NCBI GenBank assembly: GCA_002794785.1
Contig: NBBA01000004.1
Location: forward strand, 1,240,001-1,304,000
From: Coniferiporia sulphurascens
Taxonomy: Eukaryota; Basidiomycota; Agaricomycetes; Hymenochaetales; Hymenochaetaceae
DNA length: 64,000 nucleotides
Reading direction: 5' to 3'
The notes beneath the pieces are model-generated. The model saw nothing but the letters and a program-made list of their open reading frames with translations, was not told where the DNA came from and did no database searches. The translations under genes and the position numbers were made by a program. Of the stretch, positions 5,204-51,855 are shown piece by piece (positions within the stretch are counted from its first letter, which is position 1; every line of letters starts with the position of its first letter).

Positions 5204-7186
5204 CTACTCCATAACTTCCGTGAAACGGCTTTCCGCGGGCGCAGGGCCTTCGCCGGTGCCGGTGCCGGTGCCAGTTCCAGAGGGACCGTCATCGACACCA
5301 TCTTGTGCAACACGCGGGGATTGCCCCTCTGGCGCTTTCTCTTGCTGGCGCTTACTCGGGCGACGTGCCACGCCGTTAGCTCCTTCTCCATCTACGTTGC
5401 CATTCGTACGGGGAGAAGTTTTCTTTTCATCCTATAAAACCAGATAAGTGTTAGTTATTGTACAAGGTTAAGATGGATGATGCCACTCACGAGGTAACCA
5501 CTTGACCCAAATTGGTAATTGACACCCTTTTGAGGTTGAGAATACGATGGCGGTACTTGCTCATCGTTTTGATCCATTCCGTCCTGAGCAGGAAGGTACA
5601 AGTCACCGTCTTCGTCCTCGACCTCTTCCTCAACACTTGACCCCTCCTCATCTTCTTCTTCCTCGCTGACGTAGCCTGCAGCGCGCACGGCGGCTTCCAC
5701 CGGTCCGCTCCGTTCCATTTGCTCACTAGCAACGAGATAGCGTGCACAAAGCATACGGATATCGTTCCACCATTCCATCATGTCATCGTGGCTACGCGAA
5801 CGGAAGGTGTAGGCGTGGGATGAGCGGCCAGGAAAGCGCAAACCGCCCGCGGAGGCACCGGTACCGTCCTTACGAGCCTCAATATGGAATTTGTGCGACA
5901 AATTTTTGCCGTGCGAAGACGAAGGGGGACCGAGTGTACAAGCAGGAAGGAACACGGAGAAGATGGGCATGGGCTTTGATGTCGGGTCCGATGAAGCATA
6001 CTCATGCAGGTAACCAGCGGGGGAGAGTACATAGTACGCCTCGCGATAAGTACGTGTAAAGCGCTTCTTGCGTTCAAGGAAACCGCTGTGCACTGGGATG
6101 ACAGACGGATCTTCTTTGCTCGGGTATTGAATAGTCTCGGGGTTTCGAAGAGGAGTCTCTGGGTCAATGAGGTGATCGGAGCGGGCAGAAAATGCAATCC
6201 ATTCGCGATCAGGCGCAAGCGAAGCCATCTGGGTGGCAACTCCTCGCCAGACATCCTGCACAGAGCCGTTCATGCGCGATTGCCATTCGTCGTACGTTTG
6301 CCAGGCGGACTGAATGGCACGCACAATGCCTTCTTCGAAGTGCGCAGAGTTCTGTTGCATAATAATGACAGATTTCTGCAGAGCATTTTCTTCATGAACT
6401 TGCTTTTGCAATTGACGAGCGACAGCATTGTTTGCCACAAAACTGGACGCGTTGCATAAGTAATTGGATAAAGGGGAAATATATTCGAAAACTTACGGGT
6501 CGTCTTTGGAAGAAACGGTCATGGGCGAGTTCTTGAAAACTGCAATGTTCTTCGCCAGTTCTCCGACGAGCTTTGTCGACAGTTCGCGTTCCTTGGCAAC
6601 ATTTGTGGCCAGCTTTCCGGTGTCATTCTGGACATTCTATAATAAAAGTTCCTTAGTCGGGCAAAGTCAACGCGTATTAACTGTTGACGTACCTTGATGT
6701 GTGCTTTTATCTCCGTACGTAGCTTTTGAAGGTGCTGGACTATGGAGCTGTCGATCGTTTTGCCCAAGTTGGCGTGCTGGTCCGCGATGGCTCGGGTCTT
6801 GTCGCGAACACCGTAATAAATGTCCTGCGAGAAGGATGCGACGTCAGAAAGTAAAGAGAAACTTAAGACGCAGAACATACCTGCATACCACCCTCCCCGA
6901 GGAACTGATTTCCGGTGCGGAAGGGAACCTGGATGACGGCCCCAAGCTTGGTGAGCTCCCGCGCAATATTGTTCTCAATGTCTGCGATGCCCTCGAAATA
7001 GGCTATGAGCTGCTTGACGATAGCCTTCCATGCAACGAAGCGATCGATGAGGACGTCAGAAGGACGGAGGTCACTTGGAGCAATATTCTTCTTTATAAGA
7101 GACTGGCTCCTGCTTATGTTGGACCCATGTTTGCTGTTTCGAGAGAGTGAAGTCGCGCGCGACACGGTCGCGCCTTCGTTGTGCAT
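5204..7186 (-). CDS. SLM1: SLM1/SLM2-like phosphoinositide-binding PH and BAR-like protein
   Basis: Minus-strand gene, at least five exons, first ATG at 7184-7186 (MHNEGATVSRATSLSRN). A long helical region (ADIENNIARELTKL, QHANLGKTIDSSIVQHLQKL, VAKERELSTKLVGELAKN) fits the F-BAR-like half. It is followed by a PH domain starting near SVIPVHSGFLERKKRFTRTY and ending near SRSHDDMMEWWNDIRML. The tail is acidic (EEEEDEEGSSVEEEVEDEDG) and ends in Gly-Thr repeats before FTEVME. In yeast, Slm1 and Slm2 bind PI(4,5)P2 at eisosomes and recruit TORC2 to its targets; the same role is inferred here. Introns at 5432-5490 and 6443-6496 have canonical borders. It is divergent from PHO88. Confidence 0.88.
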
Positions 7187-12847: not shown

Positions 12848-13150
12848 AATGAATGGAGCGTAGATAGTGTTTGTACCTAGTGGGATGATTATCTAAAGAA
12901 GATATTACAAAAAAGCTTATGTGTGTGTGTGGAGCGCATCAGGGGTTACCTAATATGACGTAGGGAGATGCGGGTAAGGAAAGTAAAAGCGACAGTGACC
13001 TCTCAGCGACAATCGACCAAGACCTCCTCCGTTCCGACGTTCACCCAAGGCTCCGCACCACCACTCCAGCTCCAGCTCCAGTTGAACATCTCTTTCCCGC
13101 CCCTGCCCCCGCCCCCCGCCCCGCCCCAACAACCCGACCGCATACACGCA
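12848..13150. other. short intergenic region
   Basis: About 300 bases between the uricase stop and the transcription factor start. It contains a short GT run (12920-12931) and a CT/C-rich leader just before the ATG at 13151. Nothing else seen. Confidence 0.5.
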
Positions 13151-15707
13151 ATGGCCGGCGACCACAAATGCCCCGTCTGCCAGGCAACTTTCACCCGCCC
13201 CCAGCATGTCGCCCGACACATGCGCTCCCGTAAGCACTCCATCCTCCAGTCTAGCCTCTTCCACTGTGGGGCCTGCTCCCTGCTCCCTGCTTCCGCCTCC
13301 CATCCCTCCTCCCCTCTTCTTGGCTCTGACTCCTGCCCTCCCCAGACACTGGCGACCGCCCATACAAGTGCCAACACTGCGGAGATCAGTTCGCCCGCAG
13401 GTCAGTCTTTGTGTGCGCGGCTTGGTCTGTATGCGCTGGCCGCTGACTTTTTCCTTCTGCCCAACTGCACTTTCTAGCGATCTGCTATCTCGCCATGTCA
13501 ACAAATGCCATGCGGGCGACAAGCCCCCGACGACCACCGCGCCTACTCGCCGCAAGGGCCAGCACGGCGCGTCGTCTACCCGCGCGACGACTTCAAAACA
13601 GGCCTGCGATCAGTGTGTGATCGCGACTCTTCCCTGTGATGGCGCTAATCCCTGTTGTGAGTCCCCCGCCTGCTTCCATGTCCCACGCCGTCATTCTGTT
13701 GCTCATCCCCGTCGCTTTCCAGCCAAATGCGTTCAGCACAAATGCCCGTGCACATATGTCAAGTTCCAGCGGCAGACGGCGCCGTCGGGCCCCGGTCACA
13801 AGAACAGTCACTCCCTCGACTCGACCTCGTCCGTCTCGAACCTTTCGTCTGCCATGCCGCGCGCGGACGACCTTTTTCTTGGTCCCCCGCCGATGACCGT
13901 CCCGTCGATGGTCCCCGTGGGCGAGCTCTTCTATCCGAGCGCGCACCCGCAGTTTGCCTTCAATGCACCACCGGGACCACACAACTGGGACAGCGACTCG
14001 CCCAACCCGCCCTCGCTCACCCTGTCCACCACGACAGACTCGGGTCCCGATGGGTCATCCACTGACGTCGCCTCGCACTTCTGCAATCCCGATCCCACTC
14101 TAGTGCCACCCGGCTATCCCGCACCGGCCACTGCCGAATCTGGCCTTATCCCGAACTCACATGCTTACTACGCCCACCAACACCATCCGCCGCCCGGTGC
14201 GACAAGCGTCTCGTGGCAGATGCCGGCGGATTACCATATGCAGCGCAAAATAGAAGATGGCTTCGCTCAGTACTTGCCTCCGGGCCCGTCAACCCAGATT
14301 GGCAGCCCGTCCTCACTCATTCATCCGGCGAATCTCGACTACCACCACAACGGGGGTCTGTACAGCTTACATGCTCGTCGAGGCTCTATTGATGGTTTCA
14401 GTGATGGGAGCGGCGCATCAGCGCCGAACTCTGCTGCGTCATCAAGCGTGCACCTCCCGCTCGATTTCGGGGCGTCTGAGCAGGAACATCAACAACAGCA
14501 GCAGCAGCAGCAGTTGAATGATATAATGTCTTATGCACAATACACCGATGGCCACCCACCGCCTTCTCGGGATGGTAGAATCGCGTCGTCGTTCGGCTCC
14601 CTCTCTATTAATGACGCCGGTGCACCCTTTAACTATAATAATAATGTCCATGGTCCGGAAGGCAATGCACCTTTCTTCACCCAACATGCCATGAAGCTTC
14701 CCCCGCAGGACTCGACGCCACGTCCATTCCGGACCGATGAAGACCCTTCTCAATTACAAAGCCCGCGCGATCGCGAAGCCGAGATGCGCGAACTACGTGA
14801 TTTCTGGAAGCAGTATTTGCGGACACCGCTCACCGGGCCAATGCTCGGGCAGACACCGAAGGCAGAGCTCATTAATAACCAACTTGGTGCGCTCGGTGAC
14901 GCGACGCGTCCGACGCCGAAACGTGGTCTCTCACGTGTTGCGTCGCTGCCCTCCGTGCGAACACCGCCTGACGAGAAGTTGTCTGCGGCGATGGCACGTG
15001 CAAACAACGCGCAGATCCCGTCGGTGCAAACCACGGATGACCTCAAGAAGTACGAGGAGGCCGTGCTTGCGCGTAAACCGCTCAATCTCACATTCATCCC
15101 ACGCAAGGGTCGGCTTTCTGTTCCCTCGTCAGTTAGCCCGCAGCCGAACCCAGAACAGCAGATGTTGCATCAAAACCTAGCATCGCAGCTGTTCATGGAG
15201 TCTGGTTCTCCTGCGAACTTTTCGCACAGCAACGACAACTCGGGCGATGATAATCCACCTATGAGCGCTGGTGGCTGCCGTCCGAGCTTTAAACGTCTGC
15301 CATCCCAGACACTTGAGAACACTGTTCAGAAGCGAGCACTGTTCCGCTGGGGTGGTGAGGATCCGCTGGACGACACTGATTCGGAGACGGACGGACCAGG
15401 TGCTATGGCGCATGCGGGTGCGGGCGGGTACCATCATCCACACAATAGTGTGCCCATGGGTGCCGAACACTATCGCACGATGCAATTCGCTCACACGGAG
15501 TCGCTACTCGATCGCTATCGACGTCAAAGTGCGCCGACTGCTGTGCGTCCCAATCTCGATCCAGGAGGGGTACCACATGAGCACAGTCCAAGCCCTGGTG
15601 GGTACGTTGGTGGTGCGATGCACGCAGGTCATATGGCTGGAGACGTGGGAATGAGCACATCTCCTCAGCCTCCGGGACAGCCCGGCGGCGCACTCGTGCA
15701 GTCATGA
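13151..15707 (+). CDS. transcription factor with two C2H2 fingers and a Zn(II)2Cys6 cluster
   Basis: Start ATG at 13151 (MAGDHKCPVCQATFTR). Finger 1 is CPVCQATFTRPQHVARHM, joined across an intron by the linker HTGDRPYK to finger 2 CQHCGDQFARSDLLSRH. About 45 residues later comes a Gal4-type cluster split by an intron: ACDQCVIATLPCDGANPC then SKCVQHKCPCTYVKF, giving the six cysteines with normal spacing. The rest is a long, mostly disordered region rich in Pro, Ser, His and Gln, with a poly-Gln run coded at about 14491-14513. DNA binding in the nucleus is expected; target genes cannot be inferred. Having both zinc-motif classes in one protein is established in some fungi but unusual. Three introns lie in the N-terminal third. 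Confidence 0.88.
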
Positions 15708-34592: not shown

Positions 34593-36725
34593 ATGTCTAC
34601 GAAGGAAACGTGTGTTTCTAGGCAGTACCCTTCCCTCTGTTAGCCATATTATGATCAAGCATACACCCTGGCTCAGTGGAGGACTGCAGCTCTCTCCGAG
34701 GTCGACAAAGCGGCGTTTTCGTGAGTCATTTCGTGGATCCCAGCTCTACTTGCCCTGACAACAAAACTTCTTAGCTGGTTCCACGTCAAAGTATTCCTGG
34801 TTGCTGGGGCGGGATTTTTTACCGACGCGTTAGTACAATAATGTTTTTCCAATCGGTTATGTATATGCACCCTCATTATCAAATTAAGCTATGATATATT
34901 TGCAGTTAGTACGAGACATACAGAATGTGATGAATATTCATTCGTTGAACTAGATCACGATCGCTGCGACGACGCTCGGTTTTTTATACGGCGTGCCGAG
35001 AGAAATTGACGGCCTCAAAGCTCTCAGTCCACGGGAAGATCTTCTTTTAAAGATTGCCACGCCATTGGGAAGTATTGTCGGACAAGTTCTCTTTGGTTGG
35101 CTCGCCGATAAGTTCGGTCGAAAACGAATGTGTAAGTTCGAGTCGGGTTCTTGCAACTTCTTGTTCATGAGCCGTTGACATGTTTTTACTGAACTACAGA
35201 CGGGTTTGAGCTAATGATCATTCTCACCGGTACATTCTCGCAAGCCATAGCTGGTCAGGGACCTGCAGTCAACATCATATATGTTCTCTTTGTCTGGCGT
35301 CTCATAGTAAGCCATGGCGCCGTGCGTTTCTCTTGGGTCACTAATTTGTTTTGAAGGTTGGGGTCGGCATCGGAGGAGACTATACTTTGAGTGCTGTTAT
35401 ATCCTCCGAGTTTGCTGCAAGGACGATCCGTGGCCGATTGATGACGGCCGTGTTTGCGTCGCGGGGTTGGGGGAACCTTAGTACGCAAATGACCTATTCG
35501 ATGACGTGGGACAGCATATTGACTAATATCTCAGCCGCCTCGCTTGTTTCACTCGCGGTGGTCAGTTCTTTCAAGGGCGCTGTTCTGAAAGACGGCCTAG
35601 ATGAGCGGCATATCGACTACATGTGGCGTCTGCTTATTGGACTCGGCTGCGTCCCTGGAGCCATCGCACTTTACTTCCGTTTTACAATCCCGGAAACACC
35701 ACGCTACACGATGGACATCGAGCGCAGCGTGAAGAAGGCTGCCGAAGACGTGCAGAGATATGTAATGGGAGGGCCGCATCCCGAGATTGACCCTGACTCT
35801 GTTTATCCTCGCGTTGATGTGCCGAAGGCTTCTCGTAGTGATTTCCGCACATATTTCGGCGAATGGGAGAACTCCAAAGTACTCCTGGGAACCTGCGCAG
35901 CTTGGTTCTGCCAAGATGTAAGCAATTGCGGTCTTTTTCCGTGTTGGAACTCATGGAAGCATGATAGATTGCCTTCTATGGTCTTGGATTGAATTCCCCC
36001 GTGATATTCAACGCACTCAACGTCCTTAACGCAACGGAATTGTGCAACCCGAATGACTCATCCCAAGTCCTTAACCCGACAGACCCAGCCACCATTATCA
36101 GCGTGCTTCACAGCACCTCCATCTTAACTCTTATAATATCCGTCGCTGGACTTATTCCCGGATACTATACAACTTTCCTCCTTATTGACAAATGGGGGCG
36201 CAAGCGCATTCAATATATGGGCTTTGCCGTTCTCACACTTCTGTTTATTCTCCTGGGCGCCTTATACAACGCATTCTACAGGTCGGGCCAAAGAAGCGTT
36301 GTTAATGCTCTCTTCTTCCTTTATTGCTTGGCCAACTTCTTCCAGAATTTTGGCCCAAATACGACAACGTTTATCATCCCGGGGGGGGGCGTTTCCAACT
36401 CGATACCGCTCTACTGCGCACGGTCTGTCAGCAGCTTCAGGGAGACTTGGGGCAATTATAGCCCAGGTCGGGCTGTATGCGCTTGAGAGGCACGCAGGCT
36501 ACCAATGTAACCCGTCATTTATCACGGGAGTGTGAGTACTAGTGATTCTCCAGGAGGAATCTGTGCTTAAGGGTTTCTTCCCGCAGATGGCTCTTTTTTG
36601 CGGCGTTCATGTTTTTGGGTTTTCTAGCGACTACACTCGTTCCGGAAACCATGGGGCGTTCCCTTGAAGACATATCTAACGAAGAGCAGAAAGGTTTTGT
36701 GCGAGGTCCGCATCGGACTGTTTGA
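34593..36725 (+). pseudogene. PHO84-type phosphate transporter, copy 2, frameshifted
   Basis: A second MFS phosphate transporter with the same domain order as copy 1: ALSEVDKAAFS, GAGFFTDAYDIFA, GQVLFGWLADKFGRKRM, VGVGIGGDYTLSAVISSE, DYMWRLLIGLGCVPG, IPETPRYTMDIE, AFPTRYRSTAHGLSAASG and a final TLVPETMGRSLEDISNEEQ. Introns mostly match copy 1 in position. Between FIIPG and AFPTRYRS the frame shifts at a run of nine Gs (36371-36379); eight Gs would keep it open, and the rest reads cleanly to TGA at 36723. The 5' end is also unclear: the ATG at 34593 cannot be joined in phase to the exon containing YTLAQWRTAAL with a normal-length intron. It is either a young pseudogene, a gene with another start, or an assembly error in a homopolymer. 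Confidence 0.75.
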
Positions 36726-38281: not shown

Positions 38282-39670
38282 TCACCTCTTCCATACAAGC
38301 CCGTTCTTCGTACAGTTCACGATGTCCGTTCGCTCCAGCAGTCTATCGTGCTGGAACTGCGAGCCGTCGAACCTGATCTCCCTCAGCGGCTCCGGTTCGC
38401 TATTACGGTCAGCCAATCCGTGCGCGCGTCTCGGCCCCCGAGAAGCAATCATGTCCCCGACCACGCTGGGTAGTAAGAGCTGACATTCAGATCTTAAAAG
38501 CCACAGGTTCTGCAGGCGAGGGCAGATATTCGTATTTCCTCCGAGGAACCATGTCAAACGCTGGATGCAGCGGTTATCAAACCCGTGTGAGTCCACAAGA
38601 TGCAAATTTTTCAGGAGGGGCACACGTTTGAGATACTCGAAGACCTCAGAGTCACAGGTAGATATGTTAAGGAGTGTGAGGCTCTGCAATCCACCATCCG
38701 TATGATCTAGTAGCCGTACGAGATGCAGGTGCCGTGCGGATCTCAGACCGTTGATCGTAAGAGACCGCACCGCGGGCAGACACAAGTGGTCGAGAAACTT
38801 GGCCATTTCTTTCGAGTTGTGGTAGTGCAGGCTTATAACAAGTGTTCGCAAGCGTGGAAATGTCCAAAGTCCCGGCGCGCAGAAGCGGACCTCGCTCTTG
38901 AACGATATGTTCAGGTCCTCGAGCTGCGGACATCCATTAAAAAGCACAGTGACCTGATGCAAGGAGAACGCGTCGAAATGGATAGAGGTGATCGGATGGG
39001 CGTCGCTAGGGGTGATGCGCAAGGGCTGCTTCAGGATGAATTGACGGAGCGCGGGCGCGGCCGACAGCCTGAAAACGTGTTCCCATGGGCGCGTCGCTGC
39101 GTCGCCTCCCGAGTCCACCAGCGGATCCCTAAGGATGAGTTTCTGCAAGATGGGGGCCTCGTTAGCGAGGAGCTTCTCCATGTAATTTCCAGGAACGGAT
39201 ATGTCTGCTATCAGCCATCGATGGCTCTGCAGCGATATGTTGTGCATGAAGTCGGTCAGTGGGCGAAGATGCTTTGTCCACCGCGGGTCCGAGGGACATA
39301 CGAGGACGACCACCTTTAATAGCATTGGACAGCTGCCGGACCGCGATATCCATTTCTCGTATGCTTGTGAGGCGATCGCATAGGGACGGAGGAGGAAAAG
39401 ACTGATCGATGACCACAGCTCGGGCGTTCTCTCTGCCAAGTCGCGCCATTGCTTGCATACGCGACAAAGAAGAATGGGGGCCGCATGTACTGAAGGCTCT
39501 ACGAATTCTGATCTGCGAGGAATAGCGTGCCAAAAGATCATGCTGAGGAGTTCCGGGGGAAGACGTTGGATAGGACACTGTGCGAGTGGACGCGCTGGCA
39601 AGTTGCGCATTGGTTTTCCCAAACTTGAGGGTGAAGAAAGCAGTAAAACATCACGCTGCAATGCCTCCAT
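38282..39670 (-). CDS. F-box protein with leucine-rich repeat-like region
   Basis: Single-exon gene of 462 residues starting MEALQRDVLLLSSPSSLGK. An F-box is visible at about residues 31-75 (CPIQRLPPELLSMIFWHAIP, then RVCKQWRDLAERTPELWSSI). Downstream are irregular leucine-rich repeats such as CPQLEDLNISF, FPRLRTLVISLHY, LPAVRSLTINGL, LQSLTLLNIS and VPLLKNLHLVDSHG. Such proteins are greatly expanded in Agaricomycetes and recruit targets to SCF ubiquitin ligases through Skp1; the target is unknown. The gene is head-to-head with ARV1, 218 bases apart. No intron is needed, unlike nearly all neighbours. Confidence 0.85.
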   Translation of the reverse strand: MEALQRDVLLLSSPSSLGKPMRNLPARPLAQCPIQRLPPELLSMIFWHAIPRRSEFVEPSVHAAPILLCRVCKQWRDLAERTPELWSSISLFLLRPYAIASQAYEKWISRSGSCPMLLKVVVLVCPSDPRWTKHLRPLTDFMHNISLQSHRWLIADISVPGNYMEKLLANEAPILQKLILRDPLVDSGGDAATRPWEHVFRLSAAPALRQFILKQPLRITPSDAHPITSIHFDAFSLHQVTVLFNGCPQLEDLNISFKSEVRFCAPGLWTFPRLRTLVISLHYHNSKEMAKFLDHLCLPAVRSLTINGLRSARHLHLVRLLDHTDGGLQSLTLLNISTCDSEVFEYLKRVPLLKNLHLVDSHGFDNRCIQRLTWFLGGNTNICPRLQNLWLLRSECQLLLPSVVGDMIASRGPRRAHGLADRNSEPEPLREIRFDGSQFQHDRLLERTDIVNCTKNGLVWKR

Positions 39671-39888
39671 GTTTGCAGGCGAACGATGGTGCGCAGAGAA
39701 AAGTCAAGTTTCCGGTGGTAGAAGGCTTAGTCTGAGGCAAGTTTACTCAAGTTGCGGGGGCGGATGTGAGGGATGCCGATCAGTCGCCGATCAATTTCTT
39801 TTCTGGACCAACTGCGTCACAACAGGTTCTCTCGCTTAAGCAGCTTCACTTTGTACTTCATCCCCAGATATTGGCGCACATTCGGACT

Positions 39889-46487: not shown

Positions 46488-47141
46488 ACTTAGTCAGTAT
46501 GAGTGTGCTGAGAATGATGAGGAGAGTCCGACTCGGAAAAGGCGTGGCTCGAACGTTGAACCGAGTCCGTGTTGCGACCGCCGGGACGCGCTGAACCTGG
46601 CGTCATGTGACAGAGTATTGACGTTACGTAATATCAAGCACCAATAGCAACTTGTTTGTGAGGTGCGTATCTTTCTTTCACCGAATCACATTAAATTCGT
46701 GGTCTTAGACTCGTCGTATAGACCAGCCGCAACCAATACTCACACTCACCGTCTTGGCAGACAAAGGGAATATTCTACCATTTCGCATTCAGATTCGGCT
46801 GGGGAAAAGGCTATGACCCTGTGAACCCGCAATGCATGTCCGTGTCTCAGCCGTTCCTTTTTTTTTCTTTAAAAAAAATACAAGACCAGGGGACTCATAT
46901 GGTGATGTTGTCAATACTGGTTAGGCTGGGCGCTAGTGAATGATGCGCGCAGCTCTGGATAGCCATCGAGTACAGTAGCAGCGCACACGGCGACTCGCGG
47001 ATCCTGCCGCTTAAGCTTGTATTGAGTAACTATAAAGTCCGTGCTGATTTTCCCAAGGCCAATCACTGTCTACACAACATTACCCTACTTTTCTCATCAA
47101 CTCGTCCGCTACGTTGGTCACTCGAAGTATCCTGGTTGGAA
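46488..47141. other. divergent intergenic between SPC25 and dioxygenase
   Basis: About 650 bases with both promoters. A T-run and A-run sit at about 46858-46880. No gene or RNA seen. Confidence 0.5.
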
Positions 47142-48126
47142 ATGGAACTCGCCCCATCTTACCCCGTTTCATATCTGACTCTCTTCAAGACTGGGATCAG
47201 ACTACTCGCAGTGGTTTCCACCTATGAGAATCCCCTTCTGTGGAGCATGTGGCTGGGCAAGCGCAACAAACAAGCCGATATGGAGGGTATGCACCGAGCC
47301 GTATTTTCCAGTGTTTGTAATTTTTTTCTTAGAATATGCTATGTTTCAGGGCCGTTTTATGTCATTGGTGCGCCTGATAGACAGATCGAGAAAGGAAAGG
47401 CGGTCATCGCTTCTCCCGACCTCCTGAAAAGTAAGACAAAGGACAGCTTTTCATTATGGACAAGGCGAATTAACATTCTCATAGAATTCGTTCCATTTCT
47501 CGCTACTGTGCGCATTCTTTCTCCGGATGGAAGCCCCATTCCAGGCGCTTCGATAGACTGGTGGCAGGCCGACACCGAGGGAAATTATTATTTCTCGTCT
47601 TATACACTGCGTGGCCGTGTCACAACCGATGAAAACGGATGCGCGGAGGTGCTTTCCATACCCCCAGGTGCTTATGGCCCCGAGATCGCCAAGCGCGCGG
47701 GTCATTTTCACTTGTGCGTGCGACCCCCACCGGGAGGGGAGGGAGGGGCCAATTACGACGAGCTAACGACGCAGCTGTATGTGTGCGAGGCAAATGACGC
47801 TAGCGCGATGTCGTTGGACCTGTGCGTGTATATCGCACCTCTGGATTGCGGAAGCCTCGCTGCTGATGACAACCTACTTTAGCGTCAACTACATGCGCAA
47901 GGTGCGTGAGACCAACATGGTCCATGCGTGGAGCGTATCGTCCGAAACGACAGCCGACGGGGGGTCGTATATGGACCTGCCCGAGCTTGCGCCCGATGAT
48001 TTACTTACAAGAGAGCGAGTCGAGTGGTGGAATGCAAAGATCGCACAGGCAGGTGAAGATGATTTAAAGATTGCTGCTGGTGCGAATGTGGAGATCCGGT
48101 TGAACGCAAAGACTACATGGTTTTGA
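47142..48126 (+). CDS. intradiol ring-cleavage dioxygenase (catechol-type)
   Basis: Four exons; ATG chosen at 47142 (MELAPSYPVSYLTLFKTG). The core reads EGPFYVIGAPDRQIEKG, LSPDGSPIPGASIDWWQADT, GNYYFSSYTLRGRVTTDENG, PPGAYGPEIAKRAGHFHLCV and YDELTTQLYV. Comparison with catechol 1,2-dioxygenases places two tyrosine ligands in GNYYF and GAYG and two histidines in GHFHL, so the Fe(III) site appears complete. The reaction cleaves catechols between the two hydroxyls. There is no obvious signal peptide, so it is probably cytosolic. The frame is open upstream of the ATG, so an earlier exon is possible. It sits between terpene synthases and next to the fusion gene, but a role in terpene tailoring is only a guess. 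Confidence 0.85.
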
Positions 48127-48617: not shown

Positions 48618-51600
48618 ATGGCATTCCAGGCTGATCTCCCTACACCAGGGCCCGAGTCGCCGCGAGCGGAGCGCAAGCCATACCGCTTTGCGACACTGTG
48701 CGCAACGGTCGAGAACCCCGACATGAAGGATCAGTATGGCGCGAGTTCAGTGCCCATCTATCAGACCGCAACTTTCAAAGGGATTGCAGGAGAGTACGAC
48801 TACACTCGAAGCGGGAACCCGACAAGGAGCCACCTCGGTGAGCAGCACTGAATAGCGGCGTAAGGCATGCACTCATACAGGAGATCAATTGTCTTGTTGT
48901 GCCGGATGACTCGACTACCGACAGAGCACCACCTGGCAAAGATATCGTCTGCGGAACACGCATTCGCCGTGTCATCTGGCATGGCAGCGATGGACGTCAT
49001 TACACGTCTGCTCAAGCCCGGCGATGAAGTTATCGCGGGAGACGACCTCTATGGCGGAACTAACCGCCTCCTTGGTTACCTCAAGTCGCACGGCGGTGTG
49101 ATCGTGCACCATGTAGACACCACCAAAGCAGAAAGTATTCACCCGCATGCTAAGGCTGGAAAGACTGCTATGGTCCTACTTGAGAGTCCAACAAACCCCT
49201 TGCTCAAGATCGCGGACCTTGCAAAGATTGCGGCAGACGTGAAGGAGCGTGCCCCGGGGGCAATCATTGTTGTCGACAACACTATGATGAGCCCTTACCT
49301 ACAAAGGCCACTCGAGCACGGCGCAGATATTGTGTATGATAGCGCAACCAAATATCTCAGTGGACACCACGACCTCATGGCAGGCATCATTACTTGCAAC
49401 CGGGACGATATTGGAAAGGTAGTGCAATTGACATTCTTATTACGTCCTTACTAATCTACTAATTTAAAATTAGCAATTGGCATTCACCATTAACACTATC
49501 GGCAACGGACTTTCACCGTTCGATTCCTTCCTGCTATTGCGCGGAACCAAGACCCTAGCCGTGCGCATGGACCGCCAACAAACGACGGCGATGGCTGTCG
49601 CGACGATGCTCGAGCGCTTAGGATTCACTGTACATTATCCGGGACTTAAAAACCATCCTGGACGTGAGATCCACGAGAGAATTGCAAGTGGTGCGGGTGC
49701 CGTGCTAAGCTTTACAACTGGGGACAAGGCCCTTAGTGAGCGCATCGTTGGTGCGACACGTTTATGGGGCATTAGCGTGAGTTTTGGTTGCGTGAACTCA
49801 CTTATCAGCATGCCCTGCGTCATGTCGTAAGCATTTTCCAGGTCCGCTTGTTCAAATTCACACTTGGCTCACGTTTTGATATCCATGAAGGCATGCATCT
49901 ATCGATGCCGCTACGCGTGCTGAGCGTGGCCTTCCTGAAGACCTCATCCGTCTTTGTGTGGGAATTGAGGATTCCGTGGATCTTCTCGATGACCTTGAAC
50001 GTGCCCTTCTCGATGCGGGTGCTATATCCCTTGAACAGGGTATTGATGGACATCACTACGTCCGTGCCTCTTTGAAACGCGAGGGGCATGCAATCAGTCG
50101 GGCAGTTGAGAAACTTGCGTTTAACGAGACTGGGGAGCGGTCTAAGAATGGGAGGGAATGGCTTGTAAGCGCGCCAGGCAAGGTCATTTTGTTTGGTGAG
50201 CACGCCGTTGTGCACGGAGTCGTAAGTCCAATTTAGCACATTCGGCCTACCTTGTTTAGTGATAACTGGATTTTTCAACAGACCGCTTTAGCAGCTTCTG
50301 TTGATCTGCGTTGCTACGGTTTGACCTCGCCACGATACGACAAAAAGGTATCGGTCCGGTTCGCCGACCTCGGGGATTATCATCATGAATGGAATATCGA
50401 AAGTTTGCCATGGGACGCCGCCTCGCCTATTCCACCGGGCGCTCGCCACGCTGAAACGCTCGATACGAAGCTCATCGAAGCCCTCTCTGCGCGCAGCATC
50501 CCGATTTCAACGCATGATGCTCCCGCTGCTCGTAATGCCGCGCTTACTTTCCTCTACCTCTACATGACTCTTGCGCACGACGAAGGTACACGTCCAGCGC
50601 TTCATTTCAGCGCTCGCAGTATGCTCCCGGTTGGCGCGGGTTTGGGTTCTTCCGCATCATTTTCCTCATGCGCTGCGAGCGCCTTGTTGCTTGTTCTGCG
50701 ACGAGTCTCGGTACCCCCACTCCCTGCGCCCAGCTCCGAACCGACATCTTCAGGAGAGCCTGGCCATGTGCATGTCAGTCATCAGGGTCGCCGCGCGCTC
50801 CCTTCGGATCTAGCGGAGGAGATCAACCGGTGGGCATTTGTCGCGGAGAAGGTACTTCATGGGAACCCGAGCGGCGTGGATAATTGTGTGTCGGTGTTTG
50901 GAGGCGGTCTTGCGTATACCCGCCCAGGCTTTGGAAAGAAGGATGGTATGGAGCCAATTCATGGGTACGTGTTTGATGAGGTTATCATTTGCGCGCCTTT
51001 TTTTAATTATGAATTAGGTTCAAGTCTCTTCGCTTCCTACTCGTCGACACAAAGGTACCAAGAGATACAAAGGCCCTCGTGGCGGGTGTGGCGCTTAAGA
51101 AGCAAAATGTCCGCGTCTTCCATTTTAAATCAAGATTTTGAGGCTTACATTCTTAATGCACAGGAACCCGAGCACGTTGGAAATTTGCTTACGCTGATCC
51201 AGAACATCAGTGACGAGGCCCGTCGCATTCTTGCTGATCAGGAACTGTCACGGGAGACACAGCTAGACGGAGTCGGCGTACGTTTATTCCCGAATTTCCG
51301 GACAGATGCCATTCTGACAAGAAATGAACAGAAATTGATTCTTGAAAATCACGCTTACCTGCGTGAGCTGGGAGTATCACACCCTGCGCTTGAAGCTATC
51401 AAGTTAAAGACCTCGACGTATGATTTGAACACGAAGTTGACCGGCGCCGGAGGAGGCGGATGCGCAGTCACTTTGGTCCCTGACGGTGCGTGGTCTCCTC
51501 GTGTTTCATTTTGCATCACGCCACATTCGGTTTGACTCGTGCTAATCGGTGGTCCTCAGGCTTTCCGGAGAGCAAATTGAAACAACTGATGGCTGATTTA

Positions 51601-51855
51601 CGTGGAGATGGCTATGAGCCGTACTTCACATCCGTCGGGGGGTCCGGGATTGGAATTTTATCCCCGTATGGTACGGCCAACAAGCCTAGCGCGTACGATG
51701 TCCTTGCCACGCCGCCGGAAACCCCCAACGACTCGGGGGAACTAGCCGAAAGCTCCCCATCTTATTCAACGCCGCTGCAACATACTTTCCAAAACATCTC
51801 TGCCGGTGAATTTGTGGCCTGGGCGGAGGAATGCGGCAGATGGCTCTACGTTTGA
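48618..51855 (+). CDS. cystathionine beta-lyase fused in frame to mevalonate kinase
   Basis: Eight exons (48618-48837, 48925-49418, 49474-49826, 49891-50221, 50282-50964, 51018-51108, 51164-51485, 51560-51855) give 929 residues. Residues 1 to about 425 are a PLP trans-sulfuration enzyme: YDYTRSGNPTRSHLE, SSGMAAMDVI, DDLYGGTNRLL and DSATKYLSGHHD with the PLP lysine near residue 216. Residues from about 445 are a GHMP kinase: SAPGKVILFGEHAVVHGV, LPVGAGLGSSASFSSCAAS, HGNPSGVDN and KLTGAGGGGCAVTL, as in mevalonate kinase. The join lies inside exon 4, which runs from the end of the lyase to HAVVHGV with no stop and no in-frame methionine, so the kinase has no start of its own. Lyase: cystathionine to homocysteine. 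Kinase: mevalonate to 5-phosphomevalonate. Only a short segment, VGVRLFPNFRT, is atypical. Confidence 0.88.

Follow-up and report, generated by a model that had tools for sequence, protein, structure and literature searches.

Introduction

The fusion of cystathionine beta-lyase (CBL) with mevalonate kinase (MVK) has been known as a trait of basidiomycetes since 2012. In the available text of PMC3342255 (2012), where it is named metC-MVK, the fusion was found in 12 basidiomycetes, with Laccaria bicolor as the exception, and was absent elsewhere; it was the sole MVK homologue and the sole best CBL hit in the basidiomycetes studied there, its origin was placed in the basidiomycete ancestor, and a 16-residue insertion was described. 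According to the accessible part of PMC3468542 (2012), every member of the Basidiomycota examined there other than Postia placenta has STR3 fused to MVK, and no standalone MVK was found among them. The text available of both papers treats the reason for which Basidiomycota retain the fusion as an open matter. The original prediction for the locus studied here, made from sequence, held that no described enzyme links the mevalonate pathway with sulfur amino-acid metabolism, which these two papers contradict.

Later mentions are scattered. The same fusion was reported again for Lignosus (PMC4129116), and a 2025 review refers to a gene fusion that came up in research on Ganoderma triterpenes (PMC12194055), each according to the portion available; the corresponding portion of PMC4393869 lists ERG12 in Xanthophyllomyces and does not state its fusion state, and the accessible portions of PMC8420053 and PMC13412983 hold no mention of cystathionine. 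We found no enzyme assay or split-gene test of the fusion in our searches of open-access papers.

Results

Gene structure and corrected protein length

We analyzed a stretch of 64,000 nucleotides from Coniferiporia sulphurascens (the window). At 48618-51855 of its forward strand, one continuous frame encodes a eukaryotic CBL, a linker of about 46 residues and then an MVK (Table 1). Joining the exons from the window sequence gave a corrected model of 9 exons and 911 codons, with GT...AG introns, exon phases that agree, an ATG at 48618 and a single stop ending at 51855. That CBL and MVK are encoded as one polypeptide, as originally predicted, is borne out by this spliced continuous frame with its one stop and both domains. 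The exon that spans the junction indeed runs stop-free from the lyase end into the first MVK motif, and the predicted lack of a methionine between lyase end and kinase start was confirmed by scanning the translation: methionines occur at 351 and 355, within the lyase, and next at 561, within the kinase, with no in-frame methionine at residues 356-560. A separate in-frame start for MVK in the window was rejected on this ground.

Table 1. Features of the fusion gene, and other open frames observed in the window.
Feature	Position	Strand	Description
Exon 1	48618..48837	+	ATG; CBL start
Exon 2	48925..49418	+	CBL; PLP lysine K216 in SATKY
Exon 3	49474..49826	+	CBL
Exon 4	49891..50221	+	331 bases; CBL C-terminal end, entire linker, first MVK motif SAPGKVILFGEHAVV
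Linker	50021..50158	+	Residues 400-445; without methionine; mostly low-confidence in the C. weirii protein model
Exon 5	50282..50964	+	MVK; GLGSSA, E655, D666; residues preceding SHQGRRALP absent from rat MVK
Exon 6	51018..51108	+	MVK
Exon 7	51164..51277	+	MVK
In-frame intron (best reading)	51278..51331	+	54 bases, GTACGT...ACAG; 10 of 10 aligned relatives without those 18 residues
Exon 8	51332..51485	+	MVK; GAGGGGC motif
Exon 9	51560..51855	+	MVK C terminus; tail ends GRWLYV; stop
Open frame	46944..47882	+	Dioxygenase domain PF00775; immediately 5' of the fusion gene; could extend past introns
Open frame	13086..15707	+	873 residues; no Pfam match; cysteine-containing stretch CDQCVIATLPCDGANPC, by eye resembling fungal Zn-cluster regulators
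Open frame	5455..6492	-	PH and BAR-like domain protein (PF20399, PF20400)
Open frame	35345..35992	+	Sugar transporter piece, PF00083
Open frame	38282..39703	-	F-box-like protein, PF12937

One segment of the gene had previously been taken as coding. It is in frame and stop-free, so that a frame-only reading passes through it, and it came to light by comparison with ten relatives ranging from Hymenochaetales to Malassezia and Sporobolomyces; judging from this alignment, it is best read as an intron (Table 1). The earlier model of eight exons and 929 codons with agreeing phases is therefore right in its phases and wrong in its counts, the 54-base intron having been read through. Compared with the Coniferiporia weirii protein (P0001), itself a database prediction, the 911-aa protein is identical at 878 of 910 aligned residues, with one gap. 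A further 66-base intron, suggested as possible within the linker, found no support because this closest relative, 96% identical (and likewise a predicted protein), retains the same 46-residue linker.

Both halves retain the active-site residues checked

Pfam placed Cys_Met_Meta_PP at residues 33-395 and the N and C domains of GHMP kinases at 567-602 and 781-831 (929-aa numbering). On the lyase side, TIGR01329, the NCBIfam equivalog for eukaryotic CBL, scored 535.4 bits against a curated cut-off of 487.5 over residues 35-399, and the best solved-structure match was Arabidopsis CBL (1IBJ). Of the kinase profiles, PF00288 reached 31.7 bits (threshold 22.3), PF08544 stood barely above its threshold (21.6 vs 21), and PF10509 fell below its cut-off (22.6 vs 23.1). 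The MVK half aligned to the solved MVKs 1KVK and 2R3V across residues 2-421 or 422 of 484, the 1KVK match having an E value of 3.6e-62 over residues 2-421. In this alignment K453, E655 and D666 correspond to K13, E193 and D204 of 1KVK, and the GLGSSA loop is present; we take these residues and the loop to have the catalytic roles familiar from MVKs.

To these comparisons we added an Agaricomycete-rich alignment of 135 fusions (134 relatives and the window protein). K216, presumably the PLP-binding lysine as in the lyase family, is present in all 135, as are K453, S589 and E655; D666 is found in 134, the remaining sequence having a gap there. As judged from the alignment, both halves keep the active-site residues that were checked. 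Relative to the window protein, the lyase half has a mean identity of 0.81 and the kinase half one of 0.60. The N-terminal half would be the cell's CBL, converting cystathionine into homocysteine, pyruvate and ammonia in a PLP-dependent reaction, and the C-terminal half is predicted to be the cell's MVK, forming 5-phosphomevalonate from mevalonate and ATP. A C-terminal tryptophan tail was also considered as a fusion-specific element; its pattern matched 153 of 228 fusions, with many of the 25 misses displayed being close variants, and it was dropped as the ascomycete standalone MVKs displayed also end in an aromatic tail.

Linker and domain arrangement

The linker is the least conserved part of the protein, with a mean identity to the window of 0.42 and a length of 29-56 residues across the 135 fusions. 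It contains conserved patches in this Agaricomycete-rich set (A427 in 127, V428 in 120 and L431 in 127 of the 135). A structure model of the C. weirii protein, computed with an alignment of 45 fusions, had a mean pLDDT of 76.9 and a pTM of 0.52, a low value meaning that no fixed arrangement is predicted and not that the domains lack contact. In the PDB, its lyase half matches CBL 1IBJ and its kinase half MVK 1KVK. Confidence dropped under 50 at residues 418-439, in the linker, and also in several parts of the lyase half (1-15, 26-34, 36-58, 217-220 and 338-342). The protein is most likely a bifunctional enzyme consisting of two intact enzymes that form independent domains on a flexible tether; the CBL and MVK domains would fold and work independently.

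A linker of low model confidence might be a place where the single chain is cut, or MVK might also be started internally, with separate working enzymes as the outcome. The stretch with pLDDT under 50 is compatible with cleavage, and 33 of the 135 aligned fusions have a methionine inside the linker, so internal initiation is possible in those; against it, the window linker has none, and a 2A-type NPGP is absent from all 228 fusion-size proteins, the window protein included, on which basis ribosomal skipping was rejected. We regard separation of the halves by either route as quite improbable.

The two halves would be carried on a single mRNA. Among relatives, we chose sixteen records for their short contigs (2.7-3.4 kb) and found that one fused frame fills 82-97% of the contig in each, which fits spliced transcripts; some may be intron-poor genomic contigs. 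The text available of PMC3720577 reports a fused unigene from Pleurocybella mycelium.

Copy number in the assembly

The gene sits on a 2.48-Mb contig (C4) of an assembly of 39.3 Mb in 31 contigs, which we searched exon by exon, scoring the best candidates only. The kinase half matched nothing but its own exons (4 places). The GHMP_kinases_N profile hit four places, one being this gene, one scoring as a homoserine kinase and two unnamed. With the lyase half we obtained 12 places, four in this gene and eight on contigs C1, C6, C9 and C24 at 30-49% identity; the CBL family model hit 18, of which the two highest-scoring lie in this gene and the third-ranked on C9. For the main C9 piece the best model was cystathionine gamma-synthase, at 261 bits against a cut-off of 513, with the CBL model lower at 208 bits. 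This search of the 39.3-Mb assembly thus turned up a single MVK and a single close CBL, both of them in the fusion.

Distribution and origin of the fusion

A protein search restricted to candidates of 0.55-1.75 times the fusion length returned 799 matches. Each of the best 120 of these combines the lyase domain with one or more GHMP kinase domains, so that the domain architecture noticed in the original prediction is not due to chance or an assembly error; the organisms named among them are, as we recognise them, Agaricomycetes. Querying with a Malassezia fusion gave 851 matches, and the best 120, some shared with the first search, again all have both domains. They include Malassezia, Ustilago, Tilletia, Exobasidium, Sporobolomyces, Rhodotorula, Microbotryum, Mixia, Atractiella, Puccinia, Calocera and Bartheletia. 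Taxonomy look-ups place Malassezia in Ustilaginomycotina, Sporobolomyces and Mixia in Pucciniomycotina, and Calocera, Bartheletia and Coniferiporia in Agaricomycotina, with C. weirii in Hymenochaetales; the remaining genera we assigned to the subphyla presumed for them. On these records the fusion occurs in Agaricomycotina, Ustilaginomycotina and Pucciniomycotina. Tremellomycetes and Wallemiomycetes were not recognised among the best 120 of 799, of 851 or of 6322 (the kinase-only search below). The matches listed include P0032, a 909-aa fusion from Postia placenta; the exception made for this species in the accessible part of PMC3468542 does not hold for the assembly searched here.

Among the matches listed, many records of relatives are named only 'cystathionine beta-lyase', though a few JGI records bear both names. 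The records of Malassezia psittaci and M. yamatoensis (P0234 and P0235; 1249 and 1210 aa) have an extra domain, PF00266, and differing C termini; their sequences may reflect either an additional fusion or gene models that were merged.

Merging of two adjacent genes by assembly or gene prediction could in principle imitate a fusion: such errors occur, and these two Malassezia records may result from an additional merger with an adjacent gene. For the fusion itself, we consider this explanation highly improbable. Both domains are present in every record of the two partly overlapping sets of 120, which comprise many separate records, and the 96%-identical C. weirii protein is also fused; relatives have fused frames on transcript-sized contigs, and one exon spans the lyase-kinase junction in the window.

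The kinase-only search (6322 matches, best 120 considered) recovered standalone MVKs of ascomycetes, including Lipomyces, Colletotrichum and Hypoxylon, and of the Mucoromycota Umbelopsis and Bifiguratus, beside fusions and fragments. Two short basidiomycete records called 'mevalonate kinase' also appeared there, from Inonotus obliquus (P0129) and Lentinula detonsa (P0158). Neither was accepted as a standalone basidiomycete MVK: P0129 has no SAPGK motif, P0158 retains the end of the CBL half, and judging by their N termini both have the appearance of truncated models. Three further candidates of 503-528 aa, P0121-P0123, start within the end of the lyase or within the linker and were likewise rejected, their sequences looking like fragments of fusions.

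We then built a tree on 41 kinase domains, in which a branch with support of 99/98, present in 98% of 200 bootstrap trees, separates 31 fusion rows from 10 standalone rows. Since the fusion MVKs group on one side of this branch, the simplest history suggested by the tree is a single fusion that predates the split of the basidiomycete subphyla and the crown of Basidiomycota. The fusion would have been kept since then because the standalone copies were lost.

Discussion

Our observations indicate that the metC-MVK (STR3-ERG12) gene very probably gives rise to one mRNA and one bifunctional protein of 911 aa, in which independent domains are tethered, and that it probably descends from one ancient fusion. 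No substrate channel is expected, as the two activities share no substrate. The main consequence of such an arrangement would be fixed 1:1 production under one promoter, together with joint assembly. Tetramers are the usual form of CBL-type enzymes, and dimers that of MVKs.

Alternatively, selection might maintain the fusion for a mutual regulation of its two activities, with sulfur/SAM supply and isoprenoid flux coupled through domain contacts or feedback, for example through an effect of prenyl diphosphates or SAM on the opposite half. A coupling of methionine/SAM supply with sterol supply was one suggestion of the original prediction. Sterols consume SAM for C-24 methylation. The presence of the fusion in all three subphyla sampled and the conserved patches in the linker (A427, V428 and L431, in the Agaricomycete-rich set) are in keeping with this explanation. 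According to the text available of PMC9810662, the sterol regulator SREBP of Ganoderma lingzhi binds and raises 'mevalonate kinase'; if this target is the fusion, CBL would be carried along. On the other side, the linker is less conserved than either half and varies in length, the model shows no confident domain arrangement, and there is no common substrate. Moreover, loss of the separate genes makes a fusion difficult to undo, and retention by itself therefore does not demonstrate a benefit. We consider such mutual regulation rather unlikely. A regulatory device under selection, in which one promoter and cross-talk between the domains keep MVK flux in step with homocysteine/methionine production, also appears unlikely to us; under it, the effect of isoprenoid products or sulfur metabolites on one half may alter the other. 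Were the coupling true, it would tie methionine supply to the output of sterols and triterpenes in mushrooms, rusts and smuts alike.

In any of these fungi with no copy besides the fusion, deletion or overexpression of 'MVK' or 'STR3' would alter both pathways at once. With relatives often named as lyase only, the fusion may also explain why MVK is missing from automatic annotation. In Ustilago maydis, MVK is the one mevalonate-pathway enzyme without a KEGG prediction, and its NCBI name in a table there is mevalonate-5-kinase (PMC7396576, accessible part); we infer that the fusion may be the cause of this miss.

Among the described systems, metC-MVK of PMC3342255 is like the gene reported here in having CBL as the N half and MVK as the C half, with an average of about 886 aa there and 911 aa here; on the text available we see no essential difference, and the present gene is another copy, close to that of C. 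weirii. The fusion in the accessible part of PMC3468542 has the same architecture. In ascomycetes, by contrast, STR3 and ERG12 belong to the same two enzyme families but are two separate, unclustered genes, as the same part of that paper describes.
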